Source of the DNA: Streptomyces cynarae
GTDB taxonomy: Bacteria > Actinomycetota > Actinomycetes > Streptomycetales > Streptomycetaceae
DNA length: 64,000 bases
Assembly (NCBI RefSeq): GCF_025642135.1
Contig: NZ_CP106793.1
Span: 7,718,001 to 7,782,000, forward strand
Reading direction: 5' to 3'
Of the stretch, positions 4,655 to 39,730 are shown one piece after another. The position numbers were made by a program, and so were the translations under genes. Position 1 is the stretch's first letter; each line of letters starts with the position of its first letter. The notes beneath the pieces were generated by a model, which saw only the letters and a program-made list of their open reading frames with translations, had not been told where the DNA came from and searched no databases.

Positions 4655-4661
4655 GACAGGT

Positions 4662-12127: not shown

Positions 12128-13492
12128 TCACGCCAGGCGGCGGAACACCGGTTTCACCGGTCGTCCGGCCAGCCAGGGGGTGGGGTCACCGGCGTCCAGG
12201 GCCTTCCGGTACACCGCACATGCCTGTGCCACCACGTCGACGGTGTGATCGATGTCGGCCTCGCTGAGCGCGCTGCTCACCACGAACGACGGGGCCAGCA
12301 CCCCGCCCGCGAGGAGTCGGCGCAGGAACAGGGTGCGGTACGGCTGCGACGGCTGCCCCTTCTCGTCGAGGGTGGCGAAGACCAGGTTGCTGGCCCGGCC
12401 CCGGACGACGATGTGGTCGTCGACGCCCATGCCGGCCGCGGCGTCGCGGACACCGGCGGCCAACCGCTCGCCCAGGGCGTGCAGCCGCGCCGTGATGCCC
12501 TCCTCGACGTAGGTGGCCTGCACCGCCATCGCGGCTGCCAGGGAGTGCGTTTCCGCACCGTGCGTGGTGGACAGCAGGAACACCCGGTCGCCCGAGTGAC
12601 GCAGCCCGCCCCGCTCCATCAGATCGCGGCGCCCGGCCAGCGCGGAGACGGCGAACCCGTTGCCCAGCGCCTTGCCGAACGTGGACAGGTCGGGGACGAC
12701 GCCGTACAGACCCTGAGCGCCCGCCTCGGACCAGCGGAAGCCGGTGATCATCTCGTCGAAGATCAGGACGCAGCCGTGCCGGTCGGCCAGCTCGCGCAGT
12801 CCGGCGAGGTACCCGGGAGTGGGGCCTCCCCTGATCGAACGAAGTTGAGAGCTCGGGGAAGGCTCGGTGTGGGAGGCGGGTTCGAGGATCAGGCAGGCGA
12901 CCTCGCCCTCGTAGCGGGTGAGCAACTCCTCCGTGGCGGCCAGGTCCCCGTACGGGAACGCCACGGTCAGCTCGGTGGTCGCCGCCGGAATGCCGGCGGA
13001 CATCGGCGTGGTGCCGATGAACCAGTCGTCGACGGAGAAGAACGGTTGGTCGGCGCAGATGGCCACCCGCGGACGCCCGGTGACGGCGCGGGCGAGACGC
13101 ACCGCGGCGGTGGTGACGTCGGAGCCGTTCTTCGCGAACTTCACCATCTCGGCGGTCGGCACCGTGGCCAGGAAGCGTTCCGCGGCCTCGACCTCCACGA
13201 TGGACGGCCGGACGAAGTTGCTGCCACGGTCGAGTTCCCGCCGCACCGCCTCGAGCACGCGCGGGTGGGCGTGGCCGAGGCTGACCGACCGCAGGCCGGA
13301 GCCGTACTCGATGTAGCGGTTGCCGTCGATGTCCCACACGTGGGCACCGTGCCCGTGGCTGATGACCGGGGCCAGGTTCTCGGGGTACTGGTCGTCGCCC
13401 TTGGCGTAGGTGTGCGCGCCCCCGGGGATGAGGGTGTGCAGCCGCTCGTTCGCCGCCCGCGACCGGGGCAGTTCGAACTCTTCGGTTTCCAA
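12128..13492 (-). CDS. Glutamate-1-semialdehyde aminomutase-like aminotransferase (class III)
   Basis: A 454-residue PLP enzyme. Visible features: GNRYIEYGSGLRSVSLGH near the N-terminus, FAKNGSDVTTAAVRLAR, the Asp-containing LIFDEMITGFR, and the PLP lysine in STFGKALGNGF. Overall it resembles glutamate-1-semialdehyde aminomutase, but in polysaccharide clusters this branch probably moves an amino group on a sugar or acyl precursor rather than making haem. Start is TTG 13492 with GGAAGGG upstream, 7 nt after the 3,5-epimerase stop. Residues around SPSSQLRSIRGGPTP (12815-12865) are an in-frame insertion of a dispersed repeat, placed between the EPASH and YLAGLRELADR segments. Last gene of the operon. 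Confidence 0.85.
   Translation of the reverse strand: METEEFELPRSRAANERLHTLIPGGAHTYAKGDDQYPENLAPVISHGHGAHVWDIDGNRYIEYGSGLRSVSLGHAHPRVLEAVRRELDRGSNFVRPSIVEVEAAERFLATVPTAEMVKFAKNGSDVTTAAVRLARAVTGRPRVAICADQPFFSVDDWFIGTTPMSAGIPAATTELTVAFPYGDLAATEELLTRYEGEVACLILEPASHTEPSPSSQLRSIRGGPTPGYLAGLRELADRHGCVLIFDEMITGFRWSEAGAQGLYGVVPDLSTFGKALGNGFAVSALAGRRDLMERGGLRHSGDRVFLLSTTHGAETHSLAAAMAVQATYVEEGITARLHALGERLAAGVRDAAAGMGVDDHIVVRGRASNLVFATLDEKGQPSQPYRTLFLRRLLAGGVLAPSFVVSSALSEADIDHTVDVVAQACAVYRKALDAGDPTPWLAGRPVKPVFRRLA
12815..12865 (-). repeat. Dispersed palindromic repeat inserted in the aminotransferase gene (element A)
   Basis: On the minus strand the element contains CCCCGAGCTCTC, TTCGATCAGGGGAGGCCCC and ends near ACTCCC. 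Its outer parts can pair (GCCTTCCCC with GGGGAGGC). The same consensus appears at 18077-18150. It adds ~17 codons without breaking the frame. Confidence 0.6.
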
Positions 13493-13499
13493 GCCGACT

Positions 13500-14051
13500 T
13501 CACCCTTCCTTGTGCTTCAGGACCTCGGCGAGGCTCGGCGCCTCACGGTCCCGCTGGGACATCGATGTGACCGGAAGCGGCCAGGGGATGGCGAGCTCCG
13601 GGTCGTCGAAGGCGATCGTCACGTCCTCGGCCGGATCGTGCGGGCGGTCGATACGGTACGAGGTGTCGGCGGTTTCGGTCAGCGCCTGGAAGCCGTGCGC
13701 GCACCCCGCCGGGATGTACACGGTCGTCTGCGTCTCGCCGGACAGCTCGAAGAAGGCCCGGCCCAGGTACGTCGCCGACTCCGGGCGCAGGTCCACGACG
13801 ACGTCGAAGACCTTCCCGTACGAGCACCGCACCAGCTTGGCCTCGCCGGCGCCGGAGCGCAGGTGCAGGCCGCGCAGCACGCCCCGGACCGAGCGGGAGA
13901 CGCTGTCCTGGACGAAGGCGTGCGGGTCGAGACCCACCGAGCGGATCACGTCGGCGTCGAAGGTGCGGCAGAAGAAGCCGCGCTCGTCGGCGTACGGCGT
14001 GGGCTCGAACAGGTACGCGCCGGCGATCTCCGGGACTTCGGTCGCTTTCAT
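13500..14051 (-). CDS. rfbC: dTDP-4-dehydrorhamnose 3,5-epimerase-family protein
   Basis: A 183-residue cupin of the RmlC family. Diagnostic stretches: DERGFFCRTFD, QDSVSRSVRGVLRGLH (substrate and catalytic His), YGKVFDVVVDLRPESATY, and IPAGCAHGFQAL with the second conserved His. RmlC-type enzymes epimerise C3/C5 of 4-keto nucleotide sugars in the cytoplasm. No other rml genes (A, B, D) are in the window, and the operon instead carries a cytidylyltransferase, so the true substrate is probably a CDP-linked 4-keto sugar rather than dTDP. ATG 14051 shares one base with the stop of the pyruvyltransferase gene (TGATG), a coupling junction. Confidence 0.88.
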   Translation of the reverse strand: MKATEVPEIAGAYLFEPTPYADERGFFCRTFDADVIRSVGLDPHAFVQDSVSRSVRGVLRGLHLRSGAGEAKLVRCSYGKVFDVVVDLRPESATYLGRAFFELSGETQTTVYIPAGCAHGFQALTETADTSYRIDRPHDPAEDVTIAFDDPELAIPWPLPVTSMSQRDREAPSLAEVLKHKEG

Positions 14052-15268
14052 CAAGCCTTCCGGGGGGTGTGAGTGTGGTCGGTCGTCGGGAACATGGCCG
14101 CGGTCAACGCTGCGAACTGGTCGGCGAGTTGCTGCGCGGCGGCCTGGTTCCGCTCGGTCAGGGTCTGCCGCAGCTCGGCCGATCGCTTCTCCAACGCCCG
14201 GAACTGCTCGAGCAGCCGGTCGGCGTCGACCTCGCGCGCCGGGTGGCAGTACGCGCCAAGGCCCATCCGGTCCATGAGCGCGTCGCTCTTCGCCGCATAG
14301 CTGAGTGCGAGCACCGGCGTGCCGGTCTTCAGCGCGCAGATCAGGTTGTGGTAGCGGACCGCCACCACGGTGTCGGCGGCCGCCATCTCCTTCATCAGGT
14401 CGGCCAGTGAGGACGGCTCGGCGGCGGTGATCAGCGGTGAGTCCACCGCGTCGAGGATCGCGTCGACCACCGCCACATCGCACTGGTCGCCGGTGAGCAG
14501 CCGGATGGGCCTGCCGTCCTCGACCAGCGCGCGGACGAAACGGATCGTCCCGTCGAGGTAGCGCCGGTGTATCTCGTCGGCCCGGGCGCGGTCGTCGTTG
14601 CCGCCGTGGAAGTCCATGACGCCGACGCAGACCGTGCCCGGCGAGTCCGAGGGTGCGCTCGCCTGCGGCGTCGGCAGGGAGAACGCGAGGTCGGGGTAGA
14701 CCTCGTCGCGCGCGGTGTCCACGCCCATCGCCCGCATCGCGTCACGGGACTGGGCGTCCCGGTACGACCGGTACGCGGCCAGCCGCGCCGACCAGCGCAC
14801 CAGGGCCCGGGTGGGCCGGTTGCCGATCTCGGCGGCGCCGACGCTGACCAGCGCGACCCGGGTGCCGAGCAGCCGGCCGCTCGCGCAGAGCAGGAACAGC
14901 GAGTACGGGAAGCCCCACGGCCGCAGCGGGAGCGTGGCCTCCAGGACGCCCATGCCGGGCACGATCACCACGTCGTGGCGGCGCACCCAGGCGGCGGTGC
15001 GGAAGACGTCGACGAGTTTGCCCAGGCCCTTCGACGCGATCGCGCCCGCGCGTGACGCGGTCCGGTACTCCGCGCGGTTCCAGTGCAGCCGCGTGGCGGG
15101 GATCCCGAACCGGGCCGTGACGGCCTCGGGTCCGCCGCACAGGACGTCCACGACCGCCTCCGGGTGCTCGGCGCGCAGGTACCCGAGCACGGCCTCGAGC
15201 GACCCGTCGTTGCCGAGGTTGCCGGAGCCGAGGAGGCCGAACACCCCCACACGTGTTGCCGTCTTCAT
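14051..15268 (-). CDS. Polysaccharide pyruvyl transferase family protein
   Basis: A 405-residue protein with GVFGLLGSGNLGNDGSLEA at the N-terminus and VVAVRYHNLICALKTGTPVL in the C-terminal half, both signatures of the CsaB/WcaK-like family (GT-B-like fold). Such enzymes transfer pyruvate ketals from phosphoenolpyruvate to sugars of polysaccharides, adding negative charge; some members in aminosugar clusters act differently. The final ~60 residues (FRALEKRSAELRQTLTERN) look like a short coiled coil. Start ATG 15268 overlaps the preceding stop by 4 nt (ATGA). Confidence 0.82.
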   Translation of the reverse strand: MKTATRVGVFGLLGSGNLGNDGSLEAVLGYLRAEHPEAVVDVLCGGPEAVTARFGIPATRLHWNRAEYRTASRAGAIASKGLGKLVDVFRTAAWVRRHDVVIVPGMGVLEATLPLRPWGFPYSLFLLCASGRLLGTRVALVSVGAAEIGNRPTRALVRWSARLAAYRSYRDAQSRDAMRAMGVDTARDEVYPDLAFSLPTPQASAPSDSPGTVCVGVMDFHGGNDDRARADEIHRRYLDGTIRFVRALVEDGRPIRLLTGDQCDVAVVDAILDAVDSPLITAAEPSSLADLMKEMAAADTVVAVRYHNLICALKTGTPVLALSYAAKSDALMDRMGLGAYCHPAREVDADRLLEQFRALEKRSAELRQTLTERNQAAAQQLADQFAALTAAMFPTTDHTHTPRKA

Positions 15269-16212
15269 GCCCGCCGCCCTTCGCGGCCCGCGACGAGGGC
15301 GTCGACGGAGACGGTGAGCGCGGCAGGGTCGACCGGGGCGCGGTCCTCGACCCGCTCACCGGCGCCGGGCCGGACCCGGCTGGTCATCCACGCGGCAAGG
15401 TGGCGGTAGCACGCGCGCCGGTCGGCCGCGGACAACGGGGCCCGCCGGATCGCCGAGGCGAAGCCCCAGACGTACTCCGCGAGCAGCCGGGGCGTCGGAT
15501 GCAGCAGGCCCGCCCGGCGCGGGTCCAGGTTGACGCACCGGGCGCGCTTGGAAGGGTTCGCCCGCTCGGCGCGAGTGGGGTGGTCGCGGCGGAAGTACAG
15601 GAGTTCCGGCACCTGGTGGAAGCGCCCGTGCAGGGCGATCTCGGCGACGAACGTGCGGTCCGCGTGGTGGTAGCTGTCCATCGGCTTCACCCGGCGCAGC
15701 GCGTCGGCCCGGATCACTCCGTAGAAGTCGTCACCGCCGGGCTCGAACAGCATGCTGCGGAACCGCTCCGGGGCGTGCGGTGAGTCGGTGGCGAGCGTGT
15801 ACTCGTACGGCACCTTCACCCGGCCGTCGCCGTCGATGACCGCCTGGTCGGCGTGCGCGAGGATCACGTCCGGCCGCTCGTCCAGCGCCTCGACGCAGCG
15901 CCGCAGCAGGTCGCGGGCGTACAGGTCGTCGTGCGAGGCCCACTTGAACAGTTCGCCGCGGCACTGGGTGAACACGTAGTTGTGGTTCGGCGTGGCGCCG
16001 ACGTTCCGGGGCAGCCGGAGGTACCGGATGCGGGAGTCCTGTGCGGCGTACTTGCGGCAGATGCTCTCGGTCCCGTCGGTAGAGGCGTTGTCGGAGATGA
16101 CCAGCTCGAAGTCCTCGTAGGTCTGACCGAGCAGGGCGTCGAGCGACTCGGCCAGGTACTCCTCGCCGTTGTAGACGGGCAGGCCGATGCTCAGCCTGGG
16201 TCGGTCGGTCAT
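15265..16212 (-). CDS. Glycosyltransferase family 2
   Basis: A 315-residue GT-A enzyme. RLSIGLPVYNGEEYLAESL starts the nucleotide-sugar fold, followed by ISDNASTDGT, and the acidic metal site is the WASHDDLY region. No membrane segment is seen, so it works at the inner face of the membrane on the lipid-linked repeat unit. Family 2 covers many donors; the transferred sugar cannot be read from sequence. ATG 16212 overlaps the flippase stop (ATGA). Immediately downstream the pyruvyltransferase begins, also by ATGA overlap. Confidence 0.9.
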   Translation of the reverse strand: MTDRPRLSIGLPVYNGEEYLAESLDALLGQTYEDFELVISDNASTDGTESICRKYAAQDSRIRYLRLPRNVGATPNHNYVFTQCRGELFKWASHDDLYARDLLRRCVEALDERPDVILAHADQAVIDGDGRVKVPYEYTLATDSPHAPERFRSMLFEPGGDDFYGVIRADALRRVKPMDSYHHADRTFVAEIALHGRFHQVPELLYFRRDHPTRAERANPSKRARCVNLDPRRAGLLHPTPRLLAEYVWGFASAIRRAPLSAADRRACYRHLAAWMTSRVRPGAGERVEDRAPVDPAALTVSVDALVAGREGRRA

Positions 16213-17495
16213 GCGGTCCTCACTTCGGGAATGGAGTCGTGATGGCGCTCGCGGAGGGCGGACCGCAGCTGCAGCCACCACACGGCCGAGCCGCTGACGG
16301 TCGCGGCGGCGACGCCCCAGGCCGAGCCGACCGTGCCGCCACGGCAGCGCCGCCGAGCCCGCCGCCGACATAGCAGGCGGAGGCGAACAGCTGGCAGCGC
16401 AGGCTGCGCCGGGCCGCGCCGAGCGCGCGCACCGGCCGCCGCGCCGGTGCCGAGGCCCGCGCCCGCGACGCTGAAGGTGATCGCCAGGATGAGCTGCGAG
16501 GCGGAGTGCCAGACGTCGCCGAGCACGAGTTCGCCCAGCCGGTCCGGGACCAGCAGCAGGGCCCCGCCCCACAGGAGCGCGGCGACGGCCTGCCCGCCGC
16601 CCAGCCGGAGGCAGAACGGGCCGAGGCGGTGCGGGGCCTGCCGCAGCACGCGTGCCGCCTCCGGCACGGTGACCAGCGACAGGCCCATCAACACGGCGAG
16701 GAAGGGGCCCATCAGGAGCTCGGCGCCCCGCACCGCACCCACCGCGCCGACCCCGACGATCGCGCCGAGCCCGTACGCCCGCAGCTGGCTCGCACCGCTG
16801 AGGCTGACGTTCTCGACCAGGTACCGGTAGCCGAGATCGCGCTGTTCTCGAAGCCACCCGCGCGCCTCGGCCATCCTGGGCCGGATGCCGGACTGGAGGC
16901 AGCCGTACGCGGCGGCCACGGCGGCGGACGCGCCCCAGGCGAGCACGAAAGCGGCCACGCTGCCCACATGGGCCGCGACGACCATGGCGGGGACGAGCGC
17001 GACACCCCACACGACGTCGTTGACGAACGCCTTCCGTCCGTTGCCGGCGGCGAAGAACCCGAACCGCCAGGCGTCCTGCAGCAGCAGGCCCGGCATCATG
17101 ACGCCGAGGCAGGCGAACGCGGGCCCCAACCGGCCGCCGAGACCGAGCCCGACCACCAGACACACCGCACCTATGGCGGTGCCGACGCCGAGTGCGGTAC
17201 CCGTCGACCGGGCCACCGCCCCGCGCCAGGACGCGTCCGACACACCGCTGAAGCGCACCACGAGCGGGTCGGTGGAAAGGCCGCGGGAGACGTTGAGCAC
17301 CACACCGTAGGTCACCCAGGCCAGGCTGAACACGCCGAACGCGGTCACCCCCAGCGAGCGGGCCACGTAGATGCCCACAGCGAAGTTGGACATGCTGGAG
17401 GCCGCCTGGTCGGCCAGCCCCCAGGACAGCCGGCCGACCAGGGCCCGCTTGGCGGACCCGGCCGGTCTGGTCGTCTTCTCCCCCTCGATGGTCAT
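16209..17495 (-). CDS. wzx: Wzx-like polysaccharide flippase (MATE/PST family), compensated frameshift
   Basis: A ~428-residue protein with 11-12 predicted membrane segments. It starts at ATG 17495 (MTIEGEKTTRPAGSAKR) and enters the typical GLADQAASSMSNFAVGIYVAR. Such proteins move lipid-linked repeat units across the membrane. Between about 16445 and 16335 the frame as written gives an Arg-rich segment (ARARRGPAQPALP), whereas the next frame gives a membrane-like continuation (RRSLRCQLFASACYVGGGLG). The original frame resumes at GTVGSAWGVAAATVSG. A +1 and a -1 change thus compensate, scrambling ~37 residues of one helix pair. The rest of the gene is intact. Confidence 0.85.
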   Translation of the reverse strand: MTIEGEKTTRPAGSAKRALVGRLSWGLADQAASSMSNFAVGIYVARSLGVTAFGVFSLAWVTYGVVLNVSRGLSTDPLVVRFSGVSDASWRGAVARSTGTALGVGTAIGAVCLVVGLGLGGRLGPAFACLGVMMPGLLLQDAWRFGFFAAGNGRKAFVNDVVWGVALVPAMVVAAHVGSVAAFVLAWGASAAVAAAYGCLQSGIRPRMAEARGWLREQRDLGYRYLVENVSLSGASQLRAYGLGAIVGVGAVGAVRGAELLMGPFLAVLMGLSLVTVPEAARVLRQAPHRLGPFCLRLGGGQAVAALLWGGALLLVPDRLGELVLGDVWHSASQLILAITFSVAGAGLGTGAAAGARARRGPAQPALPAVRLRLLCRRRARRRCRGGTVGSAWGVAAATVSGSAVWWLQLRSALRERHHDSIPEVRTA

Positions 17496-17500
17496 CGGCG

Positions 17501-18868
17501 TCACGCCTTGATCAGCCCGGCGCCGTGCAGGGCATCGGCCGCGGCGGCGACGGTGTCGAACGGCAGCCCGGACCGCTCCGCGACGTCCAGCAGACTGTGC
17601 TCGCCGTCGGAGAGGTTGAGCACCCATAGCATGGCCATCTGGGCCTGCTTGGTGTCGCTGCGGCCGCCGAGCGCGTCGTACAACCCGCGTCGGCCCAGCT
17701 GCGGTTCGCCGTAGGGGCTGAGGTTGAGGTACTGCCGGTTGCGGTCGAGGACGGCGAACGCCTCGCGGCAGACCGCGAGGGTGTCCGCCATGGCCTCCGG
17801 CGAGACGAAGTCCAGGTTGTCCGCCGAGGTGTGGTACTCGGGGTAACCGGCGTACGGGGTCCGGGTGAGCGAGCCCACCCCGAGATTGAACCCGGGCGAG
17901 CAGAACTGCCGCTCGTCGTAGCCGTACGGGGTGAACTCGTTGACGCGGTGCGGCCGTTCGGATGCGGTCAGCACGTGCCGCATCACCCGGTCGATCTCCG
18001 CGTCACCGCGCCTGCTCTGCTTGTACGTCAACTGGCCCGGGTCCCCGGCGCAGGCCAGCACGACGCCGTGCTTGACCCTTCCCCCAGCTCTCGGCTCCTC
18101 CCCCAAGCTCTTCGAGCAGGGAGGGGCCCCCAGAGCAGGGGATACCCCATTCACCCGCTCCGCGTTGCGGGCCAGCCAGGTGATCGCTCCGATGGTGCCG
18201 GGCGCGAAGAGGAACCGGTAGGTGTAGTACGGCGTTTCCTCCGCCAGCGCCCGGGCCAGGAACGTCGCCACCGCGATGCCGGCCAGGTTGTCATTGGCCA
18301 GCGAAGGGTGGCACACGTGGCAGGAGACGATCACCTCGTCGGGGACCTGCCCGGGGACCACATGCTCGGCGTAGGTGAGGTGGCCGTCGGCGAGGGTGGA
18401 GTCGATGCGGACCTCGTACTCGCCGTCCGGCATCGCGTCCAGCGTCTCCTGGGCCAGGCAGAACCCCCATTCCGGCTTGTAGTAGCTGGTGCGGTACGGC
18501 ACCCAGGACGGGTGGTCCGGCAGGGTGTGCAGGTGTCCGCGCAGCTCGGACAGGGGCATGGTCCTGGACACCGGCACGCTGTAGCCGAGCACGTGCAGGC
18601 TGGACGCGGCGAAGTCGACGACCCGGTTGCCGGCGGGGTCGGCGATGTACGCGTCCCGGATGTTCCACTCCTGCGGCACCGTCCAGTCGAGCACCTGCGT
18701 CCCGGTCGGCACCTCGTGCACCTGGAGCGGGATGTACTCGCCGACGATGTCCAGGGTGGCGCGGACACCGTCGCCGGTGATGCTCCGGCACAGCGGGTAC
18801 ATCCGCTCCACCAGTGCGTACATCTGGTCGCCGGCGGCCGTCATCGGCTGTTCGCCGGCCGTGGTCAT
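17501..18868 (-). CDS. DUF4910/aminopeptidase-like protein of polysaccharide clusters
   Basis: A 455-residue protein starting at ATG 18868, which overlaps the epimerase stop by 4 nt. The core is an M28-like zinc-hydrolase fold: VSCHVCHPSLANDNLAGIA holds the likely metal ligands His and Asp, with further candidates in EFTPYGYDERQFCSPG and PEYHTSADN. The N-terminal part (LCRSITGDGVRATLDIV) and a C-terminal winged-helix-like region complete the usual architecture (DUF4910 with DUF2172). Members occur beside sugar cytidylyltransferases and C-methyltransferases in O-antigen clusters; the reaction is not established. A dispersed repeat adds ~25 residues (GVSPALGAPPCS, KSLGEEPRAGG) in the loop after WLARNAERVN. 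Confidence 0.8.
   Translation of the reverse strand: MTTAGEQPMTAAGDQMYALVERMYPLCRSITGDGVRATLDIVGEYIPLQVHEVPTGTQVLDWTVPQEWNIRDAYIADPAGNRVVDFAASSLHVLGYSVPVSRTMPLSELRGHLHTLPDHPSWVPYRTSYYKPEWGFCLAQETLDAMPDGEYEVRIDSTLADGHLTYAEHVVPGQVPDEVIVSCHVCHPSLANDNLAGIAVATFLARALAEETPYYTYRFLFAPGTIGAITWLARNAERVNGVSPALGAPPCSKSLGEEPRAGGRVKHGVVLACAGDPGQLTYKQSRRGDAEIDRVMRHVLTASERPHRVNEFTPYGYDERQFCSPGFNLGVGSLTRTPYAGYPEYHTSADNLDFVSPEAMADTLAVCREAFAVLDRNRQYLNLSPYGEPQLGRRGLYDALGGRSDTKQAQMAMLWVLNLSDGEHSLLDVAERSGLPFDTVAAAADALHGAGLIKA
18077..18150 (+). repeat. Dispersed palindromic repeat inserted in the DUF4910 gene (element B)
   Basis: The plus strand reads CCCCCAGCTCTCGGCT, then CCCCCAAGCTCTTCGAGCAG and GGAGGGGCCCCC, matching the consensus of element A at 12815-12865 but in the opposite orientation relative to the host gene. 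Part of the motif is duplicated. The open frame is kept. Confidence 0.6.
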
Positions 18869-19890
18869 CGGCGCCACCGCAGGGTGTCGTCGACAGTGCC
18901 GGCCTCGGACGCCGCGCGCAGCACGGCGAGCCGGGTGAAGCGCTGCTCGAAGTCCTCCTTGGTCAGCCCGAACTTCCTGTAGGCGTCGGCGAGTTCGAGT
19001 GCCCCCTGCTTCACCGTCCACTCGCAGTCGAAGCCGGGGATCGCGGCGCGGAACCGGGAGAAGTCCACCCGGTAGGAGCGCGGGTCGGCCCCGTTCTCCC
19101 CGGTGATCCGCACCTTCGCGCCGGGCACCGCCTCGGCGACCTGCTCGGCGATCTCGGCGACCGTGACGTTGTTGGTCTCGCTGCCGATGTTGAACGCCCG
19201 GTCGTGCACCGCATCGCGCGGCGCGCTCAGCGCGGCCGTGAAGGCCCGGGCGATGTCGGCGGCGTGCACCAGCGGGCGCCAGGGGGTGCCGTCGGAGAGC
19301 ACGAGGACCTCGCCGGACAGGAGCGCGTGGCCCACCAGGTTGTTCAGCACGATGTCGGCGCGCAGCCGGGGCGAGTAGCCGAAGGCGGTGGCGTTGCGCA
19401 TGTACACCGGGGTGAAGTCGCCGTCGGCCAGCGCGTGCAGGTCGTCCTCCACCCGCACCTTGGACTCCGCGTACGGCGTCACCGGGCGCAGCGGGGCGTC
19501 CTCGCCCACCAGGTCGTGGCCGCCGGCGGCGCCGTAGACCGAGCAGGTCGACGCGTACAGGAAGCGCCGCACTCCGGCGTCGCGGGCCAGCCGGGCCAGC
19601 CGTACGGACGCGTGGTGGTTGATGTCGTAGGTGAGCTCCGGCGCCAGCGATCCCAGCGGGTCGTTGGACAGGGCGGCCAGGTGGATCACGGCGTCCACCC
19701 CGGCCACGTGCTCGGCCGTGACGTCGCGCAGGTCCACCCGGTGCCCCTGCGGGTCCGCGGGCGTCTCGCCGAGGACGGAGTGGGCGAACAGGCCGGAGTC
19801 CAGGCCGACGACTTCGTGTCCGGCGGCGGCGAGGACCGGGGCCATCACGGTGCCCAGATAGCCCTGGTGCCCGGTCAGTAGTACGCGCAT
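18865..19890 (-). CDS. NAD-dependent sugar epimerase/dehydratase (extended SDR)
   Basis: A 341-residue extended short-chain dehydrogenase. The NAD loop is TGHQGYLG (TGxxGxxG). Catalytic residues are in STCSVYG and YAESK (Tyr-x-x-x-Lys). VDAVIHLAALSND is the usual post-beta4 segment. Sequence features are those of the branch found next to RfbF-like cytidylyltransferases and C-methyltransferases, which reduce or epimerise 4-keto nucleotide sugars. It is cytoplasmic. Start ATG 19890, 4 nt after the deacetylase stop; its own stop overlaps the next start. Confidence 0.87.
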   Translation of the reverse strand: MRVLLTGHQGYLGTVMAPVLAAAGHEVVGLDSGLFAHSVLGETPADPQGHRVDLRDVTAEHVAGVDAVIHLAALSNDPLGSLAPELTYDINHHASVRLARLARDAGVRRFLYASTCSVYGAAGGHDLVGEDAPLRPVTPYAESKVRVEDDLHALADGDFTPVYMRNATAFGYSPRLRADIVLNNLVGHALLSGEVLVLSDGTPWRPLVHAADIARAFTAALSAPRDAVHDRAFNIGSETNNVTVAEIAEQVAEAVPGAKVRITGENGADPRSYRVDFSRFRAAIPGFDCEWTVKQGALELADAYRKFGLTKEDFEQRFTRLAVLRAASEAGTVDDTLRWRR

Positions 19891-19894
19891 TGGT

Positions 19895-23821: not shown

Positions 23822-23823
23822 GC

Positions 23824-26599: not shown

Positions 26600-26607
26600 G
26601 CGCCCTC

Positions 26608-30737: not shown

Positions 30738-30754
30738 CGGAACTCCCCTGATTC

Positions 30755-32689: not shown

Positions 32690-32692
32690 GTC

Positions 32693-34246
32693 CTACCGCA
32701 CCTCCTGCTCGCTGTCCGGGACCCGTGTCGCCCACATCGGCTGGCGCTCAGTCCGATGCCGGCCCTCTCCCACTGCCTTGACGGCGTGGGAGGTACCCCC
32801 ACCGTTCTGCCGGGCCGTCCGGTCGTTCTGGCCGCGCAGAGCGGTGTGCAGCCCGTCCCACAGCGTGCCGTCGGTCCGGTCGCGCGGATCGGGGTCGATC
32901 AGCACCACACCGATCACCGTGATGCGCTGGTCGGCGAGCTGCCGCGCCACGGTGTGCAGCCATGCGGCGCTGCCGTGCCCGGCACGCACGACGAGCACGG
33001 TCCGAGTGCCGAGGAACTGGAGGTCGGTCCACGCCGTGCCGGGCGCCACCGAGCCGACGCCGAGCGGGCGCTCCTGATGCGACACGCTCGCGGCACGTTC
33101 CCCGCTCACCACGGTCGGGTCTCCTGACTTCGGGCGGCGGCCGGAGAGCTGCGAGCCGGGCAGACCGTCGATGACGACCACCGGCCCCTCCGTCGCCAGC
33201 GCCCGGGCGAGATCCAGTGCGATCACGCTCGCGCTGCGCGCACAGCCCAGTTCCAGCAGCGACACCGGTTCCGCGGAGTCGCGCACGGTGCGTGCCAGGG
33301 ACCCGGTGAGGCGTTCGCGTGCCGTCCTGTTCCGTCGACGGCGCCACAGCCTGGGCGACCGCGCGGGGAGCTCCGCGATGACCGAGGCGCCGAGGTTCAC
33401 CGCGATCTCCCGGCGCAGCACGGGCCGGTCCGCCACCACCGCGCCGACCGCGGCCACCGCGAGCCCGAGGACGAGTCCGAGTACGAGCCCGATCGCGGCG
33501 TCGGTGGCGGCGGCCTTGGGCAGGGAGTGTCGCACCGCGTGCGGGGCGTCCACGATCTGTGTGCCGGCGATGAGCTGGGGCGTGCCGACGCTCGCCTCCG
33601 CGGCGCGCTCGCCGAAATCGGTGATCTTCGAGGTGAGGTCGGCCCGGCGGGCGAAGAGCGACTCCAGATTCGCCGACGTCTTGGCCCCGCTCGTCGTCGA
33701 TCCGTCTCCGATCGCCTTGTTGACCTGGGCGAGTTCGTCCCGCAGTCGGTCGCGCTGGTTGAGCAGGGCCTTGGCCTCGGCGTTCGAGGTTTCCCGAATC
33801 CGCCGCACATGGTCCGCGACGAACGCGTCGGCCAGCGCCTTGGCGCGGGCCTCCGCCTCCGCGTCGCTGGCACCCGTCACATTGATCTGCAGCAGATTGT
33901 TGGTCAGACCGACGCCGCTGTAGTCCCGCATGAAGGTCTCCGGTTTTTCCGGGGACTTGAGGGCCTTGAGCGCCGCGTCGGCGATCCGCGTGGTCTGCAG
34001 CAGCGCGACGTCGGTGCGGATCAGCGTTCCGGGGTCGTTCGGCTGGTCCTCCGCGTGCGCGACCAGCACCTTGGTCACCGCGCTCGGGGGCGGCGGCATC
34101 AGGATCGCCACCGCCGAGCCGATCAGCAGGCCCACCAGCGCCATGGCGCACCACAGGCGCCGGCGCCTGCGCACCGCCACCACCAGTGCCTGCAGGTCAA
34201 GGAGCGGGGCGGCGGCCGTCGACTCCGAAGTCGTGCTCGTCGTCAC
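32693..34246 (-). CDS. Wzz/chain-length-type membrane protein with degenerate BY-kinase domain (1)
   Basis: A 517-residue protein starting at GTG 34246 (GGGAGG upstream, GTGA overlap with the previous gene). Two membrane segments flank an extracytoplasmic Wzz region: LWCAMALVGLLIGSAVAIL (~33-51) and AAIGLVLGLVLGLAVAAVGA (~250). A helical stretch with ALLNQRDRLRDELAQVNK suggests coiled coil. The cytoplasmic C-terminal ~230 residues resemble the Rossmann core of tyrosine kinases (CpsD/Wzc) but the Walker A lysine motif is absent (ELGCARSASVIALDLAR) and there is no Tyr cluster. It should control chain length and export. A short repeat hairpin at 32763-32802 encodes part of the tail. Confidence 0.83.
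   Translation of the reverse strand: MTTSTTSESTAAAPLLDLQALVVAVRRRRRLWCAMALVGLLIGSAVAILMPPPPSAVTKVLVAHAEDQPNDPGTLIRTDVALLQTTRIADAALKALKSPEKPETFMRDYSGVGLTNNLLQINVTGASDAEAEARAKALADAFVADHVRRIRETSNAEAKALLNQRDRLRDELAQVNKAIGDGSTTSGAKTSANLESLFARRADLTSKITDFGERAAEASVGTPQLIAGTQIVDAPHAVRHSLPKAAATDAAIGLVLGLVLGLAVAAVGAVVADRPVLRREIAVNLGASVIAELPARSPRLWRRRRNRTARERLTGSLARTVRDSAEPVSLLELGCARSASVIALDLARALATEGPVVVIDGLPGSQLSGRRPKSGDPTVVSGERAASVSHQERPLGVGSVAPGTAWTDLQFLGTRTVLVVRAGHGSAAWLHTVARQLADQRITVIGVVLIDPDPRDRTDGTLWDGLHTALRGQNDRTARQNGGGTSHAVKAVGEGRHRTERQPMWATRVPDSEQEVR
32763..32802 (+). repeat. Short dispersed hairpin repeat in the chain-length gene tail (element C)
   Basis: CTCCCACTGCCTTGACGGC-GTGGGAG forms a 7-bp outer stem (CTCCCAC/GTGGGAG) plus GCC/GGC, followed by GTACCCCCA. 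This palindrome-plus-GGTACCCCC layout is a familiar small Streptomyces repeat. It codes for the C-terminal residues around GGGTSHAVKAVGEG without a stop. Confidence 0.55.
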
Positions 34247-35613
34247 GCTGAACCTCCCGTTCCGTGGCCGGGCACCGCGAGCGTCAGGGTGGCGTCGTCG
34301 GGAAGCTGGCCGGCGGACCGCGTGGGGCGGGCCAGGACCATGCCGGCGACGACGATGCCGACGACCTCGTGCCTGCCGTCCGCACACGCCTCGGCGATGC
34401 CGGCGAGCTCCTCCGCGGTCCAGCTGCCCGCGCTGAGGACGACCAGGGCGCCGGACTCGGTGTCGCGGTCCGGCACTGTCGGCCGGTCCACCGAAACCTC
34501 GACCACGCGCAGCTGCAGACCGTTCTTGGCCTCGGCGACGAGTTGCCCCGCGGCCCGGCGGGCGATCTCGTCGCCGTCCGGTACGACGACCAGCAGCCGC
34601 TGGGCTCCCGGCAGTCGCTCCTTCAGGCGAGCGCACACCCGCCGGTAGCGGAGCCGACTGCCGGCCTGGTCAACGGACTGCTGTGGGACGGGTATGTCCC
34701 ACCGTGCGTCGATGCCGAGGAGGCGGCGGATCCGGGCTCGCGGGCCCCCGTCCTCCGGCCGGTGCACCGGCTGTTCAGTGGGCACGTCGACGGTGCCGAG
34801 GAGGGTCGAGCCCAGCGCCGCGGCGATCTCCGGTTCGGTGCGCAGTCGGCGGTTCATCCGCGCCGCGACGAGATGGCCGATGAGCGCGAGCAGGAAGAAC
34901 AGCACTGCTCCGCCGAGGACGAGCTGCAGCCTCGTGGGCGGCGCCTCGCCGGTCGGCCTGGGGGCCGGACCCATGACGACCATGCCCGCCTTGTTGTTCG
35001 CAGGGTCGGCCTCGTCCAGCTTCTGCATGGCCTCCTCGAGCGAGGTGCGCAGCTGCTCGAGCTCGGTGCGGGCCTGCACGCTCTCCACGGTCTGTCCCGG
35101 ATCGGCCGCCTTGGCCAGGTCGGTGATGCGGCGGTTGGTCTCCGCCACCTTCTTCCGCAGCGCCTCGGTCCCCGAGGCCGCCTCGGTGTCGGTGCTGCCG
35201 CCCGCGACCCCTGCTGCGAAGGCGACGAACTGCCGGGCCACCTGGTCGGAGAGCTGCTGTGCGCGCTCCGGGGTGTCGGCCGTACCCGAGATCTTGATGA
35301 TGTTCCCGTCGGCGGCCTTGGCGGTCACTCGATGCTCCAGCTCGGTGCCGCTGACGCCGGACCAGTGGAGAGCGGCGGCCGTGCGGTCGAGCACCGCCGA
35401 ACTGGTGGCGATGTCCACCTGGGTGAGCAGCTCGCGCTCCTCCCACTGTCCCGGCAGCAGTACCGGTGCCGACGCGGTGTATCGCGCCGGGAACACCACC
35501 ACGGAAGTGCCGTAGCCCACGAGTGCGCCCAGCACGGCGAGGACGGCGAGCAGTCGCCAACGCCGGCGTAGTATCCGCCCGATCGTGACTAGGCGGATCG
35601 TGTCTTCGTTCAA
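34243..35613 (-). CDS. Wzz/chain-length-type membrane protein with degenerate BY-kinase domain (2)
   Basis: A 456-residue paralogue of the next gene. TTG 35613 overlaps the glycosyltransferase stop (TTGA). It has an N-terminal membrane segment RLLAVLAVLGALVGYGTSVVV (~19-40), an extracytoplasmic region ending in a Pro-rich GPAPRPTGEAPP, and a second segment LVLGGAVLFFLLALIGHLV. The C-terminal domain (AQRLLVVVPDGDEIARRA, REGALVVLSAG-like DTESGALVVLSAGSW) keeps a kinase-like Rossmann fold but no Walker A. Two tandem chain-length proteins without a working kinase suggest they form a hetero-complex. The LVTIGRILRRRW start is typical of the Wzz domain. Confidence 0.82.
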   Translation of the reverse strand: MNEDTIRLVTIGRILRRRWRLLAVLAVLGALVGYGTSVVVFPARYTASAPVLLPGQWEERELLTQVDIATSSAVLDRTAAALHWSGVSGTELEHRVTAKAADGNIIKISGTADTPERAQQLSDQVARQFVAFAAGVAGGSTDTEAASGTEALRKKVAETNRRITDLAKAADPGQTVESVQARTELEQLRTSLEEAMQKLDEADPANNKAGMVVMGPAPRPTGEAPPTRLQLVLGGAVLFFLLALIGHLVAARMNRRLRTEPEIAAALGSTLLGTVDVPTEQPVHRPEDGGPRARIRRLLGIDARWDIPVPQQSVDQAGSRLRYRRVCARLKERLPGAQRLLVVVPDGDEIARRAAGQLVAEAKNGLQLRVVEVSVDRPTVPDRDTESGALVVLSAGSWTAEELAGIAEACADGRHEVVGIVVAGMVLARPTRSAGQLPDDATLTLAVPGHGTGGSA

Positions 35614-36875
35614 CGCCGCTGCCTCTTCCTTGTGCGGATCGGGTCGTCCGCCGACTCCGGAGTTCGATCGCGGCTCGCTGCGGCGTAGGCGGCGAGGAGC
35701 GACGCTTGCGAGTTCCGCCAGGAAAGCTCCCCGCTGATCCGCTCCTGGCCGATCTCGCCCATCCGCGCCCGTTTCTCCGGATCGTCCAGCAACACCGTGA
35801 TGTGCTTGGCGAATTCGGCCTCGTCGTTGGCGGGCGCGTAGACGGCGGCGTCACCGGCGGAGACCCGCGCCTCCTTCAGGTCGAACGAGACGATCGGCCG
35901 GCCCATCGCCATGTACTCCAGGACCTTGTTCATGGTCGACACGTCGTTGAGCGGATTGCGCGGGTCGGGGGAGAGGCACACGTCCGCGGTGGACAGGTAG
36001 CGCACCAGGTCGGCGTCCGGAATGCGCCCGGTGAACTGCACCTGCTCCGTGAGCCCGAGCCGCCGGGACAGCTCCACCATCGCGTCGAAGGCGTCGCCGG
36101 CTCCGACGAACACCGCGTGCCAGTCGGTCCGCCCGAACTCGTCGCGCAGCTTCGCGAGGGCGCGCAAGGCGTAGTCGACGCCGTCCTGCGGGCCCATGAC
36201 ACCGAGGTAGCACAGCAGATGAGGCTTGCCGCGCTTCAACTCCGGCTCGGGCGGCACCGGTTGGAACCGGTCGATCGCTGGTGCGCTGCGCACCACGAAG
36301 ACGTCCTGCGGCCGCCGACCGCCACGGCGCACCGCGACGTCCCGGTAGCTCTCGTTCGTGGCGATCACGACGTCCGCGGCCCGGTAGGTCCACCGTTCCA
36401 GCGCGCACACGGCGCGGTAGAGCAGATCCTTGCCGCGGTCGAACCGGGAGAGGTACAGCTCGGGCACCAGGTCGTGCTGGTCGAAGACGAACCGCGCGCC
36501 GCGCCGCTTCAGCCACAGTGCCGGCAGGAACAGCAGGTCGGGCGGGTTGCAGGCGTGGACCACGTCGACCGGACCGACTTTGCGGGCCAGCCGGGCCGTG
36601 TGCCACAGCGCCGACCCGTACTCCCTCAGGTAGCCGGCCGGTCCTCCCGTGGCCGCGCGCAACGGGTAGCGGTGGATCCGCACCCCGTCGATCTCCGCCT
36701 CCGGCTCCGTGTCCCGCTTGCTCCCCTGGGGACAGATGACGTGCACCGTCCAGCCCGCGTCGCGCAGCGTCGTGCACTCCTGCCACACCCGCCGGTCGAA
36801 CGGCACCGACAGGTTCTCCACCAGGATCAGCGCGCGCCGGTCCGACCCGCCGCCGCTGATTGCGTTACCAAGCAA
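35610..36875 (-). CDS. Glycosyltransferase family 4 (first in operon)
   Basis: A 421-residue GT-B enzyme. RALILVENLSVPFDRRVWQEC is a diagnostic N-terminal signature (LSVPxDRRVW) of a subfamily with FDQHDLVPELY. The donor half has YLGVMGPQDGVDYALRAL and MNKVLEYMAMGRPIVSFDL with the conserved Glu pair. It likely adds the second sugar to the primed lipid. Start is TTG 36875, inside the 3' end of the dehydrogenase gene (11-nt overlap); no better start is seen. Cytoplasmic, membrane associated. Confidence 0.88.
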   Translation of the reverse strand: MLGNAISGGGSDRRALILVENLSVPFDRRVWQECTTLRDAGWTVHVICPQGSKRDTEPEAEIDGVRIHRYPLRAATGGPAGYLREYGSALWHTARLARKVGPVDVVHACNPPDLLFLPALWLKRRGARFVFDQHDLVPELYLSRFDRGKDLLYRAVCALERWTYRAADVVIATNESYRDVAVRRGGRRPQDVFVVRSAPAIDRFQPVPPEPELKRGKPHLLCYLGVMGPQDGVDYALRALAKLRDEFGRTDWHAVFVGAGDAFDAMVELSRRLGLTEQVQFTGRIPDADLVRYLSTADVCLSPDPRNPLNDVSTMNKVLEYMAMGRPIVSFDLKEARVSAGDAAVYAPANDEAEFAKHITVLLDDPEKRARMGEIGQERISGELSWRNSQASLLAAYAAASRDRTPESADDPIRTRKRQRR

Positions 36876-38181
36876 GGCCCATGTATCCCGGTTCGGTCCG
36901 GCGCGCCTCGGCGTCGGGAAGGCGGATGAGGTCGACGATCACCGGGCCGTCCCCATGCGGCAGCGCCGCAAGGACGGCCGGGTCCCTGGTCCCGACCAGG
37001 CACACCTCGGCATGTTCGAGCACCTCGTCGACGGAGTCCGCGAGCAGCTGCGCGAGGTGCGGCAGCCGCATCTCGATGTACTCGCGGTTCGCGCCGAGCA
37101 GCCGGGAGAGGCTCACGTTGGCGTCGTGGATCCGCAGGTCGTACCCCTTGCCGTGAAGCCTCTCCGCCAGTTCGACGAGCGGGCTCTCGCGGAGGTCGTC
37201 GGTGCCGGGTTTGAAGGACAGCCCGAACAGGCCCACCCGGCGCTTGCCGGTGCGCTCGACCAGCTCCACCGCGCGTTGCAGATGGTCGGAGTTGGAGGGC
37301 AGTACGTGGGAGAGGATGGGCACCGAGACATCGGCCCGCTGCGCCGCGTGGACCAGGCTGCGCAGGTCCTTGGGCAGGCAGGAGCCGCCGAAGGCGAAGC
37401 CGGGCCGCAGATAGGCGGGGCTGATGTTCAGCTTGCGGTCGGCCAGGAACACGTCCATCACCTGGTGCGAGTCCACCCCGAGCGCCTGGCACACCGCGCC
37501 CAGCTCGTTCGCGAAGCCGATCTTGAGGCCGTGGAACGCGTTGTCCGCGTACTTGATCGCCTCGGCCGTCGGGACCGGCACCCGGAACACCTCACCGGGC
37601 AAGCCGTCGTACAGCGCCATCACCGCGTCACCGCTCGACGGGTCGAGCTCGCCGATGACGGTCTTGGGCGGGTCGAAGAAGTCCCGCACGCTCGTGCCCT
37701 CGCGCAGGAACTCCGGGTTGACCGCGACCCCGATGTCCACCCCGGCCGTGCCGCCGACGGTCTTCTCCAGGATCGGCACCAGCAGGTTCAGACACGTGCC
37801 CGGGAGCATGGTGCTGCGGAACACGACGGTGTGCCGCCCACCCCGCTCGGCCAGCGCGGCGCCGATCTGCTCGGTGACCCGCTCCAAGTACGTGGTGCAC
37901 AGGCTGCCGTTGGGCTCCGACGGTGTGCCCACGCAGACCAGCGACACCTCGCTGTCCATGACCGCCTCGCGGACGTCGCCGGTTGCGCGCAGCGCCCCGG
38001 TCCGCACCACCTCGGCGATGAGCTCGCCGATCCGCTCCTCGACCACCGGGGCCTTGCCGTCGTTGACCAGGTCGACCTTCACCTGGTTCACGTCCACCCC
38101 GATGACCTCGTGGCCCATGCTGGCCAGGCACGCGGCCGACACGCAGCCCACGTAACCGAGCCCGAAAACGCTGACTCTCAT
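36865..38181 (-). CDS. UDP-glucose/GDP-mannose dehydrogenase family (AlgD-like)
   Basis: A 438-residue four-electron dehydrogenase. NAD loop VFGLGYVGCVSAACLASMGH; central VNPEFLREGTSVRDFFDP; catalytic Cys in GFAFGGSCLPKDLRSL. C-terminal domain: VGLFGLSFKPGTDDLRESP. GFAFGGSCLPKD with DNAFHGLKIGFANE is closer to GDP-mannose 6-dehydrogenase (AlgD) than to UDP-glucose dehydrogenases, which usually read GxGFGGxCFPKD. It would make GDP-mannuronate for the polymer. Start ATG 38181 is 70 nt after the sugar transferase, the widest gap in the operon, and has a GGGGGGAG site upstream. Confidence 0.88.
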   Translation of the reverse strand: MRVSVFGLGYVGCVSAACLASMGHEVIGVDVNQVKVDLVNDGKAPVVEERIGELIAEVVRTGALRATGDVREAVMDSEVSLVCVGTPSEPNGSLCTTYLERVTEQIGAALAERGGRHTVVFRSTMLPGTCLNLLVPILEKTVGGTAGVDIGVAVNPEFLREGTSVRDFFDPPKTVIGELDPSSGDAVMALYDGLPGEVFRVPVPTAEAIKYADNAFHGLKIGFANELGAVCQALGVDSHQVMDVFLADRKLNISPAYLRPGFAFGGSCLPKDLRSLVHAAQRADVSVPILSHVLPSNSDHLQRAVELVERTGKRRVGLFGLSFKPGTDDLRESPLVELAERLHGKGYDLRIHDANVSLSRLLGANREYIEMRLPHLAQLLADSVDEVLEHAEVCLVGTRDPAVLAALPHGDGPVIVDLIRLPDAEARRTEPGYMGLAW

Positions 38182-38251
38182 GACGCGTCACTCCCCCCAG
38201 GCAGGCCCCCTCGGCCTGCGGTCCGCGCGCCGGTCGGACGACCCCCGCGCA

Positions 38252-39730
38252 TCAGTAGGCCCCCTGCCCGTGAAGCACCGCACGCAGCGTCTTCCACAAG
38301 ATCACTGTGTCCAGGGCGAGCGACCAGTCCTCCACGTACCGCAGGTCGAGGCGGACCGCCTCCTCCCACGGCAGATCGCTGCGTCCGCTGATCTGCCACA
38401 GGCCGGTGAGCCCGGGCTTGACCAGCAGCCGCCGCCGGATGTCCGGGTCGTACGCGGCACACTCCTCCGGTAGCGGAGGCCGCGGTCCGACGAGGGACAT
38501 CGATCCGGTGAGCACGTTGAAGAGCTGCGGGAGCTCGTCGAGCGAGTACCGGCGCAGCACTGCTCCCACCCGGGTCACCCGCGGATCCCGGCGGACCTTG
38601 AACAGCAGGCCCGCGCCCTCGTTGCGGTCGGCCAGCTCCGCACGTGCCCCGTGAGCCCCTGCGACCATGGTGCGGAACTTGAGAATGGTGAACTCGCGGC
38701 CGTCCTTGCCGACCCTGCGCTGGCGGTAGAACACCCCACCCCGGCTGTCCACCGCCACGAGCAGCCCGACGAGCACCATCAGCGGCGCGAACAGCACCAG
38801 CAGGACCGCCGCGCCCACCCGGTCGACGACCGCTTTGATCGCCCGGCGGCCCCCGGTGAAGGTCGGCATACTGACCCGCAGCAGCGGGATCCCGAGCACC
38901 GCGTCGACGTGCAGCCGCGGGCCGGCCACCTCCATCAGCACGGGGGCCACGACCATTTCGGCGTCGCTGCCCTCGAGGTTCCAGGCCAGCCGCTGGAGCC
39001 GGTCCGGTGTCCAGTGCGGGTCCGGTGTGACCGCGACGACGCGGTAGCCGTCGTGGCGGACGTGCTTGGCGACGTCCGCCAGTTGACCGACGACCGGCAC
39101 CCCGTCCAGTTCGTCACCGTCGAGCCCGCGACCGTCCGTCGTGCAGACCGCCTCCACCCGCCAGCCGATGTGCGGGAACTTGCGGGTTCTGGTGATCAGG
39201 TCGCGCACGGTGGCCGGGCTCCCGGCAGCGAGCACCGGTCTCAGGCACCGGCCTTCCTTGCGCTGTTTGTGCAGCCAGAGGCGCAGCAGATACCGCGCGG
39301 TCATCGTGACGAGCGCGATCGCGGGTATCGCGACGAAGATCCAGAGTTTGATGTTGCGCGAGGTCAGGGCTATCCCGCCGAGCGCCAGTACGACGGTCGC
39401 CGCGAACAGTGAGCGTCCGAGTCTTCGGAATTCCTCGGCGCCCTGGCCGAGCACGGCCGGAGCCCAGGCCCGGCCCACCGCCAGCGCTCCCAGCACCAGC
39501 AGCTCGGTGCCGAATGCGAGAATTCCCCACTTCTCGTGCCAGTTGGCCGCGTCCCGGGCCCCGAAAAAGTTGCCGATCGCCGCCACCACGAAGGCGGTGG
39601 TCACGCTATCGCTGGTGACCACGGCACGTCTGTACCGCTGCTCCCAGGCAATCGCGGGCTGGCTGATTGCCCCGTTCGCCAGACGCCCGCGCGCCGACGG
39701 AAACGGGCTGACAAGTCCCCCTTGCCGCAC
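38252..39730 (-). CDS. Undecaprenyl-phosphate sugar phosphotransferase (WcaJ/WbaP type)
   Basis: A 492-residue polyprenyl-phosphate hexose-1-phosphate transferase, first gene of the operon and the priming enzyme of the pathway. The N-terminal half holds four membrane segments and a CoA-binding-like domain (RPVLAAGSPATVRDLI). A further membrane segment (VGAAVLLVLFAPLMVLVGLL) precedes the catalytic domain with KFRTMVAGA, RRYSLDELPQLFNVL, GSMSLVGPRPPLPEE and KPGLTGLWQISGRSD, all strongly conserved. GTG 39730 is preceded by GGGGGGTTCT. The sugar (glucose, galactose or another) cannot be told from sequence. Confidence 0.92.
   Translation of the reverse strand: MRQGGLVSPFPSARGRLANGAISQPAIAWEQRYRRAVVTSDSVTTAFVVAAIGNFFGARDAANWHEKWGILAFGTELLVLGALAVGRAWAPAVLGQGAEEFRRLGRSLFAATVVLALGGIALTSRNIKLWIFVAIPAIALVTMTARYLLRLWLHKQRKEGRCLRPVLAAGSPATVRDLITRTRKFPHIGWRVEAVCTTDGRGLDGDELDGVPVVGQLADVAKHVRHDGYRVVAVTPDPHWTPDRLQRLAWNLEGSDAEMVVAPVLMEVAGPRLHVDAVLGIPLLRVSMPTFTGGRRAIKAVVDRVGAAVLLVLFAPLMVLVGLLVAVDSRGGVFYRQRRVGKDGREFTILKFRTMVAGAHGARAELADRNEGAGLLFKVRRDPRVTRVGAVLRRYSLDELPQLFNVLTGSMSLVGPRPPLPEECAAYDPDIRRRLLVKPGLTGLWQISGRSDLPWEEAVRLDLRYVEDWSLALDTVILWKTLRAVLHGQGAY

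Follow-up and report, generated by a model that had tools for sequence, protein, structure and literature searches.

The Pseudomonas alginate operon (algD-alg8-alg44-K-E-G-X-L-I-J-F-A) is a described system to which a group of 21 genes of Streptomyces cynarae can be compared. These genes lie on the minus strand at positions 12128-39730 of the window, that is, the whole 64,000-nucleotide stretch of DNA analysed here (7,718,001-7,782,000 of contig 1 in the 9.36-Mb genome). Both operons encode a GDP-mannose 6-dehydrogenase of the same clade, a beta-helix protein and a protein of lyase type. The S. cynarae operon differs in Wzx/Wzy-type assembly without a synthase in the 21 genes, in its heteropolymer genes, in a lyase-type enzyme of another family and without a signal peptide, and in a beta-helix protein without a conserved DPHD motif. 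The Vibrio polysaccharide (VPS) of Vibrio cholerae offers a further likeness, as RbmB is an exported beta-helix lyase of the same fold class and the polymer bears a uronate-type residue. The VPS precursors and gene set differ from those of the operon described here. Among the Streptomyces exopolysaccharides, the Ebosin ste cluster of Streptomyces sp. 139 is stated to be similar to SCO0381-0401 of S. coelicolor (PMC4398421), and the present operon is likened to it through this description.

The SCO0381-SCO0401 cluster itself is described as 21 genes, putatively in one operon (PMC2000904). Table 4 of PMC3610822 lists the products as glycosyl transferase, dehydrogenase, hypothetical, two exopolysaccharide transport and asparagine synthetase (SCO0381-0386), followed by bi-domain oxidoreductase, hypothetical, lipoprotein, hypothetical, transferase and methyltransferase (SCO0387-0392), transferase, hypothetical, epimerase/dehydratase, putative peptidase and hypothetical (SCO0393-0397), and glycosyl transferase, possible membrane protein, epimerase and glutamate-1-semialdehyde aminomutase (SCO0398-0401). 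The 21 genes of the window run parallel to this list name for name and in the same order, the 'hypothetical' and 'membrane protein' entries being matched by place alone. The operon is thus, judged by order and published gene names, the counterpart of the S. coelicolor cluster. The expression of that cluster is developmental, since its 21 genes are raised by log2 +0.8 to +4.0 in the second mycelium MII (PMC3610822 Table 4), and six of them change by log2 -3.1 to -5.2, alongside chaplins and rodlins, in a mutant of the SCO4117 sigma factor (PMC5826349). Despite this developmental switch-on in a model streptomycete, publications still refer to the product as an unknown deoxysugar, and the cluster carries a deoxysugar label (PMC8062868: 'unknown deoxysugar synthesis'; PMC7244524; PMC8981147). 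PMC5982138 reads sco0381-0386 as polysaccharide genes and predicts that SCO0382 makes GDP-mannuronate. In the searched literature, which left most subscription journals outside, no description of SCO0388 as heparinase-like or of SCO0389 as a beta-helix protein was found. Two S. coelicolor genes of the cluster contain TTA codons (PMC2000904), whereas a codon scan found none in the 21 genes of the window, and therefore bldA control may differ between the species.

The operon is best regarded as a conserved Streptomyces operon that probably directs a Wzx/Wzy-assembled, uronate-bearing heteropolysaccharide and not alginate. This amounts to a concrete claim: about one in three sampled Streptomyces (32-33 of 101 genomes) would make a conserved exopolysaccharide that bears mannuronate and is regulated in development. 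The uronate is indicated by the dehydrogenase. Its UDPG/GDP-Man dehydrogenase Pfam domains score 174, 97 and 45 bits, and the best solved structure is the GDP-mannose 6-dehydrogenase 1mfz at 476 bits, with the next at 222. The identity is 52% to 1mfz vs 34-36% to two UDP-glucose dehydrogenases. Within a sample of 246 genomes of the phylum (threshold E 1e-60), ten matches, five from the own genus and five others, reach at least 407 bits and all others at most 245. In a tree of 36 rows these ten form one clade with AlgD (support 100/99); set against three reference rows, the clade is recovered in every one of 200 bootstrap trees (100%). AlgD and all ten actinobacterial AlgD-like rows have in common a two-residue insertion, KLN (RLN in one row), and the block FAFGGSCLPKD (YAFGGSCLPKD in one row), both absent from the 25 other rows, and the catalytic Cys268 is kept in 68 of 68 relatives. 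On the basis of the 1mfz scores and the AlgD clade, the enzyme is classed as AlgD-type and not as UDP-glucose type. An AlgD within a Wzx/Wzy-type operon is the uncommon part of the system; PMC5982138 already gives this assignment for SCO0382 of S. coelicolor.

The assembly route is indicated by the initiating phosphotransferase and the Wzz proteins of a Wzx/Wzy-type system (Pfam, TIGR03025); two Wzz, phosphotransferase, Wzy-like and Wzx-like genes occur in all 11 genomes compared. No Alg8/Alg44-type synthase was found among the 21 genes, to which the search was confined, and the sole GT2 glycosyltransferase has 315 residues and no hydrophobic segments. The polymer is therefore unlikely to be alginate, and the genes for branched-sugar synthesis, pyruvate ketal addition and amidation point to a Wzx/Wzy heteropolymer.

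The 21 genes are very likely one operon, because the intergenic gaps range from -11 to +70 bases and 9 of the 20 junctions are 4-base overlaps, with start codons picked by hand. The conservation of the block was followed in 101 Streptomyces genomes, own genome included. The heparinase is found in 32 of them, the beta-helix protein in 33, and the dehydrogenase in 33 at 870 bits or more, with a 34th genome giving only a 209-bit match. The three co-occur in the same 32 genomes, and the dehydrogenase and the beta-helix also in a 33rd, G050, a fragmentary assembly (82%) without a heparinase match. About two thirds of the sample is without the operon. Ten genomes were fetched from the 31 others with a heparinase match, selected for long contigs, and all ten hold the 21 genes in identical order, at identities mostly of 70-96% (the lowest value, 63%, covers half of Wzz1 in a single genome). 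Gaps that never exceed 70 bp and this identical order place the gene block far beyond chance. Among 40 named Streptomyces loci, 36 span at least 21.8 kb; every gene from the dehydrogenase to Wzx is present in 36 of 36 and the phosphotransferase in 35, the last four operon genes lying beyond the flank and hence uncounted. Many capsule loci vary in gene content; the content of this operon is invariant within the sampled carriers. Towards the 3′ end of the Wzx candidate gene (about 16300-16410), some 30 residues differ almost wholly from the 10 relatives while both sides agree, a pattern suggestive of a sequencing error or of a brief frameshift that is then compensated.

The preliminary description had placed the dehydrogenase, the beta-helix and the heparinase in one leftward Wzx/Wzy-type operon, and this picture holds. 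The three families stand where it put them (Pfam domains, 1mfz), the genes co-occur across the genus sample except in G050, and the comparison with other Streptomyces that it proposed returned the same 21 genes in all ten fetched genomes. A grouping of the dehydrogenase with the UDP-glucose dehydrogenases, named there as the sign of an error, was not seen. Its gene reading needs one correction: the open reading frame at 26608-30672 (1354 aa) merges two genes, the 650-aa heparinase and, in another frame, a 726-aa oxidoreductase (28557-30737) that had been missed. The 'complete Wzx/Wzy set' is borne out for the phosphotransferase and Wzz, with Wzy and Wzx candidates in place that are weakly labelled.

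The lyase-type protein belongs to the heparinase II/III family. Hepar_II_III_N (52 bits) and Hepar_II_III_C both lie above the Pfam cut-off, and the profile matches heparinase III at E 6e-15. AlgL is a periplasmic enzyme of polysaccharide lyase family PL5 with the Pfam domain Alginate_lyase; no such domain is found in the heparinase at E 0.001, where Hepar_II_III stands alone. One of the 120 relatives listed (P0212) carries PF05426 plus Hepar_II_III. The catalytic residues of heparinase III, given in PMC12088678 Table 4 as N240, Y294 and H424, align with N233, Y287 and H438 of the window protein (the chain numbering of heparinase III is 24 lower in the alignment, an offset derived in this analysis). 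The three residues do not vary among 54 close rows (the window protein and 53 of the 120 relatives listed), nor in a set of six rows, five of which share 32-54% identity with the first, nor across the 80 named loci. Hydropathy indicates neither a signal peptide nor a membrane segment. This is the odd point of the system: an intact active site of the uronate lyase type occurs in a seemingly intracellular protein encoded in a polysaccharide-building operon.

The lipoprotein has a hydrophobic N-terminal segment by hydropathy, and its AlphaFold2 (AF2) model is a right-handed parallel beta-helix, a predicted fold like that of C5-epimerases and uronate lyases. Mannuronan C5-epimerases carry a DPHD-type catalytic motif, and DPHE is present in the AlgE4 sequence. 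No conserved DPHD-type motif was found in the beta-helix protein, where D.H[DE] occurs solely at 415 and is missing in 15 of 57 rows. In one register, M185 (66/68) and G187 (68/68) take the motif positions, the register to AlgE4 being uncertain. The residue equivalences are tentative, because hhalign gave no significant alignment between the beta-helix profile and AlgE4 (E 0.19). The closest named homologues of the beta-helix and the heparinase are Streptomyces proteins, with up to 97% and 96% identity.

Outside Streptomyces, a smaller part of the operon is kept. The 80 named loci, 40 of them non-Streptomyces, were chosen by the heparinase and are the best 80 of a longer list; the non-Streptomyces ones include Amycolatopsis, Prauserella, Actinophytocola, Thermocrispum, Pseudonocardia, Knoellia, Pedococcus and Kitasatospora. 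Those of at least 21.5 kb (31 loci) were counted and nine shorter ones left out, a match being above 100 bits on either strand. The heparinase and the glycosyltransferase GT4a are present in 31, AsnB and the oxidoreductase in 30 each, the dehydrogenase in 27, and all five together in 27. The counts for the other genes are 27 for Wzz2, 27 for Wzy, 25 for the beta-helix, 24 for Wzz1 and 19 for GT4b. The C-methyltransferase, PIG-L, epimerase and DUF4910 genes each occur in 3 of 31, namely in Streptacidiphilus and two Kitasatospora, all Streptomycetaceae. Given these counts, what stays constant in the operon resembles a cassette for uronate tailoring, and the genes for the branched sugar resemble a streptomycete addition, unless they are located farther off in other taxa. 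In the phylum sample, the five cassette genes occur together in G141 and G184, and the dehydrogenase, GT4a and heparinase in G291. The cassette is apparently undescribed, none having been found in the searched literature; what results is a known operon with a sharper hypothesis on its chemistry, plus this cassette, which raises the question of the role of a lyase-type enzyme inside the cell in a polysaccharide-building operon.

Some loci depart from this pattern. A metagenome-assembled genome labelled Pelagibius litoralis (L114) has AsnB, oxidoreductase, heparinase, AlgD-type dehydrogenase and GT4a, with distant relatives of the beta-helix, GT2, nucleotidyltransferase, epimerase and C-methyltransferase, and is either a transfer between phyla or a misbinned contig. 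Amycolatopsis loci (L118, L123, L124, L126, L127, L134, L153) carry extra beta-helix copies on the opposite strand, and several of them also have aminotransferase, RmlC or pyruvyl transferase homologues there. The actinobacterial locus L112-L113 of G209 has relatives of the C-methyltransferase, epimerase, nucleotidyltransferase, GT2, AsnB and heparinase, and no match to the AlgD-type dehydrogenase. The reverse case is seen in G185 and G174 of the phylum sample, which have the dehydrogenase and no heparinase match; a check for synthase-type alginate clusters around these dehydrogenases scanned 8 of the 38 open reading frames listed there and found no alginate-specific one among the 8. The G185 locus (L105) has its AlgD-type dehydrogenase (53% identity) near a second family member (33%), at 1367-2632 and 4441-5745, without the cassette.

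On the reading favoured here, the cassette would form a mannuronate residue and modify it before export, probably by amidation and possibly by inversion at C5. On its family, the AlgD-type dehydrogenase would oxidise GDP-mannose to GDP-mannuronate. Undecaprenyl phosphate would receive its first sugar from the phosphotransferase, and the repeat unit would be assembled in the cytosol by three glycosyltransferases, with the GT4 enzyme at 35610 most likely adding mannuronate, as families and linkage suggest. In Streptomycetaceae, a C-methyl-branched amino/deoxy sugar and a pyruvate ketal would be added, the former through the nucleotidyltransferase, epimerase, C-methyltransferase, RmlC, aminotransferase, PIG-L and DUF4910 proteins. 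AsnB would amidate the uronate, and the oxidoreductase and the cytosolic heparinase-type enzyme would tailor the same residue inside the cell. The family and active-site residues of the latter suggest C5 proton abstraction, either as epimerisation or as an editing lyase reaction. Wzx would then flip the unit, Wzy polymerise it and the two Wzz proteins set the chain length, as expected from their families. Outside the cell, the beta-helix lipoprotein may trim or release the polymer by lyase or hydrolase activity, or may hold it.

The two reactions open to the heparinase-type enzyme lead to different explanations. An intracellular editing or salvage lyase for wrongly built or unexported uronate oligosaccharides, with the beta-helix as an RbmB-like matrix lyase and neither altering the sugar configuration, is a possible explanation that falls short of being probable; the linkage with AsnB and the oxidoreductase (30 of 31 loci each) suits a building step at least equally. 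Human dermatan sulfate epimerase 1 has the same fold and active-site residues in common with heparinase II, and the authors of PMC8006597 propose that small active-site changes can convert a lyase to an epimerase. A C5-epimerase therefore also comes into consideration. It is a tentative and rather doubtful proposal that the heparinase-type enzyme is a cytosolic uronyl C5-epimerase. Jointly with AsnB and the oxidoreductase, it would modify mannuronate that is lipid-linked and not yet exported, giving Actinomycetota a route to guluronate-type or uronamide residues that is unrelated to AlgG and feeds the Wzy polymer. An unlikely alternative on the substrate side is that the AlgD-type dehydrogenase has, by drift, come to use a different nucleotide sugar. 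Its retention in 27 of the 31 loci, and not in all with the rest of the cassette, would fit such a drift, and the KLN/RLN insertion and FAFGGSCLPKD block in 10/10 AlgD-like rows and 0/25 others speak against it. The preliminary description favoured an alginate-like mannuronan/guluronan polymer, with the beta-helix as AlgG epimerase and the heparinase as AlgL lyase, which is now quite unlikely. The right-handed parallel beta-helix matching AlgE4 keeps the fold part of this idea, and the AlgG role loses ground without a conserved DPHD-type motif; a Hepar_II_III protein with no signal peptide by hydropathy is a poor AlgL, and a polymer called alginate-like is overstated for an operon with several genes for other sugars. 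The alginate analogy thus breaks down for the synthase and for AlgL and, to the extent that it could be tested, for AlgG. The same description called a Wzy route in a Gram-positive unusual; it is ordinary in these bacteria. A secreted glycolipid or 'deoxysugar' specialised metabolite with no polymer is very unlikely. It is the product that the printed label in PMC8062868 would suggest, and it sits badly with the two Wzz, phosphotransferase and Wzy-/Wzx-like genes in 11/11 genomes and with the polysaccharide reading of sco0381-0386 (PMC5982138).

Several points weigh against a uronate-bearing Wzx/Wzy heteropolysaccharide as set out above. The Wzy_C match (22.5 bits) is under the cut-off of 31.7, and the Wzx candidate has 7 hydrophobic segments and no Pfam match. 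The orthology to SCO0381-0401 is drawn from published names, not from SCO sequences. The cytosolic location of the heparinase is taken from hydropathy alone, and its fold from profiles, because the AF2 model (54 rows, all close) has a mean predicted local distance difference test score (pLDDT) of 46.8 and was not used for fold searches. As the 80 named loci were picked via the heparinase from the top of a longer list, they represent the near end of a larger family. Of the nine non-Streptomyces genomes with a heparinase relative in the phylum sample, only G141, G184 and G291 have an AlgD-type dehydrogenase; the other six (G124, G209, G231, G279, G324, G327; heparinase identity 28-39%) do not. 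Four of the 31 loci (L125, L130, L140, L170) likewise have the heparinase and GT4a with no AlgD-type dehydrogenase within reach, and no UDP-glucose dehydrogenase-like gene was found within the reach of these loci. The heparinase substrate therefore need not be mannuronate.

Table 1. Genes of the operon in the order of transcription, with the corresponding S. coelicolor positions
Product	S. coelicolor position	Coordinates	Strand	Evidence
Polyprenyl glycosylphosphotransferase, initiating enzyme	SCO0381	38252..39730	-	Bac_transf 218 bits; TIGR03025 401 bits (cut-off 296)
AlgD-type GDP-mannose 6-dehydrogenase	SCO0382	36865..38181	-	1mfz 476 bits; AlgD clade 100/99; catalytic Cys268 in 68/68 relatives
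GT4 glycosyltransferase GT4a, constant cassette partner	SCO0383	35610..36875	-	Glyco_trans_1_4 89 bits; >100 bits in 31/31 non-Streptomyces loci of at least 21.5 kb
Wzz-type chain-length protein 1	SCO0384	34243..35613	-	Wzz 25.7 bits (cut-off 25.5)
Wzz-type chain-length protein 2	SCO0385	32693..34246	-	Wzz 38.2 bits
AsnB-type glutamine amidotransferase	SCO0386	30755..32689	-	Asn_synthase 317 bits; GATase_7 144 bits; Cys2 in 73/74
Bi-domain oxidoreductase, zinc-ADH + GFO/IDH/MocA, 726 aa	SCO0387	28557..30737	-	GFO_IDH_MocA 80 bits; ADH_zinc_N 60 bits
Heparinase II/III-type uronate lyase/epimerase-like enzyme, 650 aa, without signal peptide	SCO0388	26608..28560	-	Hepar_II_III_C 166 bits; triad 80/80; hydropathy
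Lipoprotein, right-handed parallel beta-helix	SCO0389	25058..26599	-	Beta_helix PF13229 48 bits; lipobox-like N-terminus by eye; AF2 core 51-310; best Foldseek match AlgE4, E 9.3e-6
Wzy-type polymerase candidate	SCO0390	23824..25065	-	Wzy_C 22.5 bits (under cut-off 31.7); 8 hydrophobic segments
GT4 glycosyltransferase GT4b	SCO0391	22577..23821	-	Glycos_transf_1 92 bits
Sugar C-methyltransferase	SCO0392	21345..22580	-	Methyltransf_14 217 bits
Sugar-1-phosphate nucleotidyltransferase	SCO0393	20539..21348	-	NTP_transferase 20.7 bits (just below cut-off 21.2)
PIG-L deacetylase	SCO0394	19895..20542	-	PIG-L 47 bits
NAD-dependent epimerase/dehydratase	SCO0395	18865..19890	-	Epimerase 161 bits
DUF4910/M28-like protein	SCO0396	17501..18868	-	DUF4910 369 bits
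Wzx-type flippase candidate	SCO0397	16209..17495	-	7 hydrophobic segments; no Pfam match; kept in 10/10 relatives
GT2 glycosyltransferase, 315 aa	SCO0398	15265..16212	-	Glycos_transf_2 100 bits
Polysaccharide pyruvyl transferase	SCO0399	14051..15268	-	PS_pyruv_trans 98 bits
RmlC-like sugar epimerase	SCO0400	13500..14051	-	dTDP_sugar_isom 180 bits
Class-III pyridoxal phosphate (PLP) aminotransferase	SCO0401	12128..13492	-	Aminotran_3 123 bits; NF004856 708 bits (cut-off 486)

Directly past the end of the operon, a convergent gene lies on the plus strand at about 11441-12120. Its translation shows, by eye, a motif which we take to be that of a PAP2 phosphatase.

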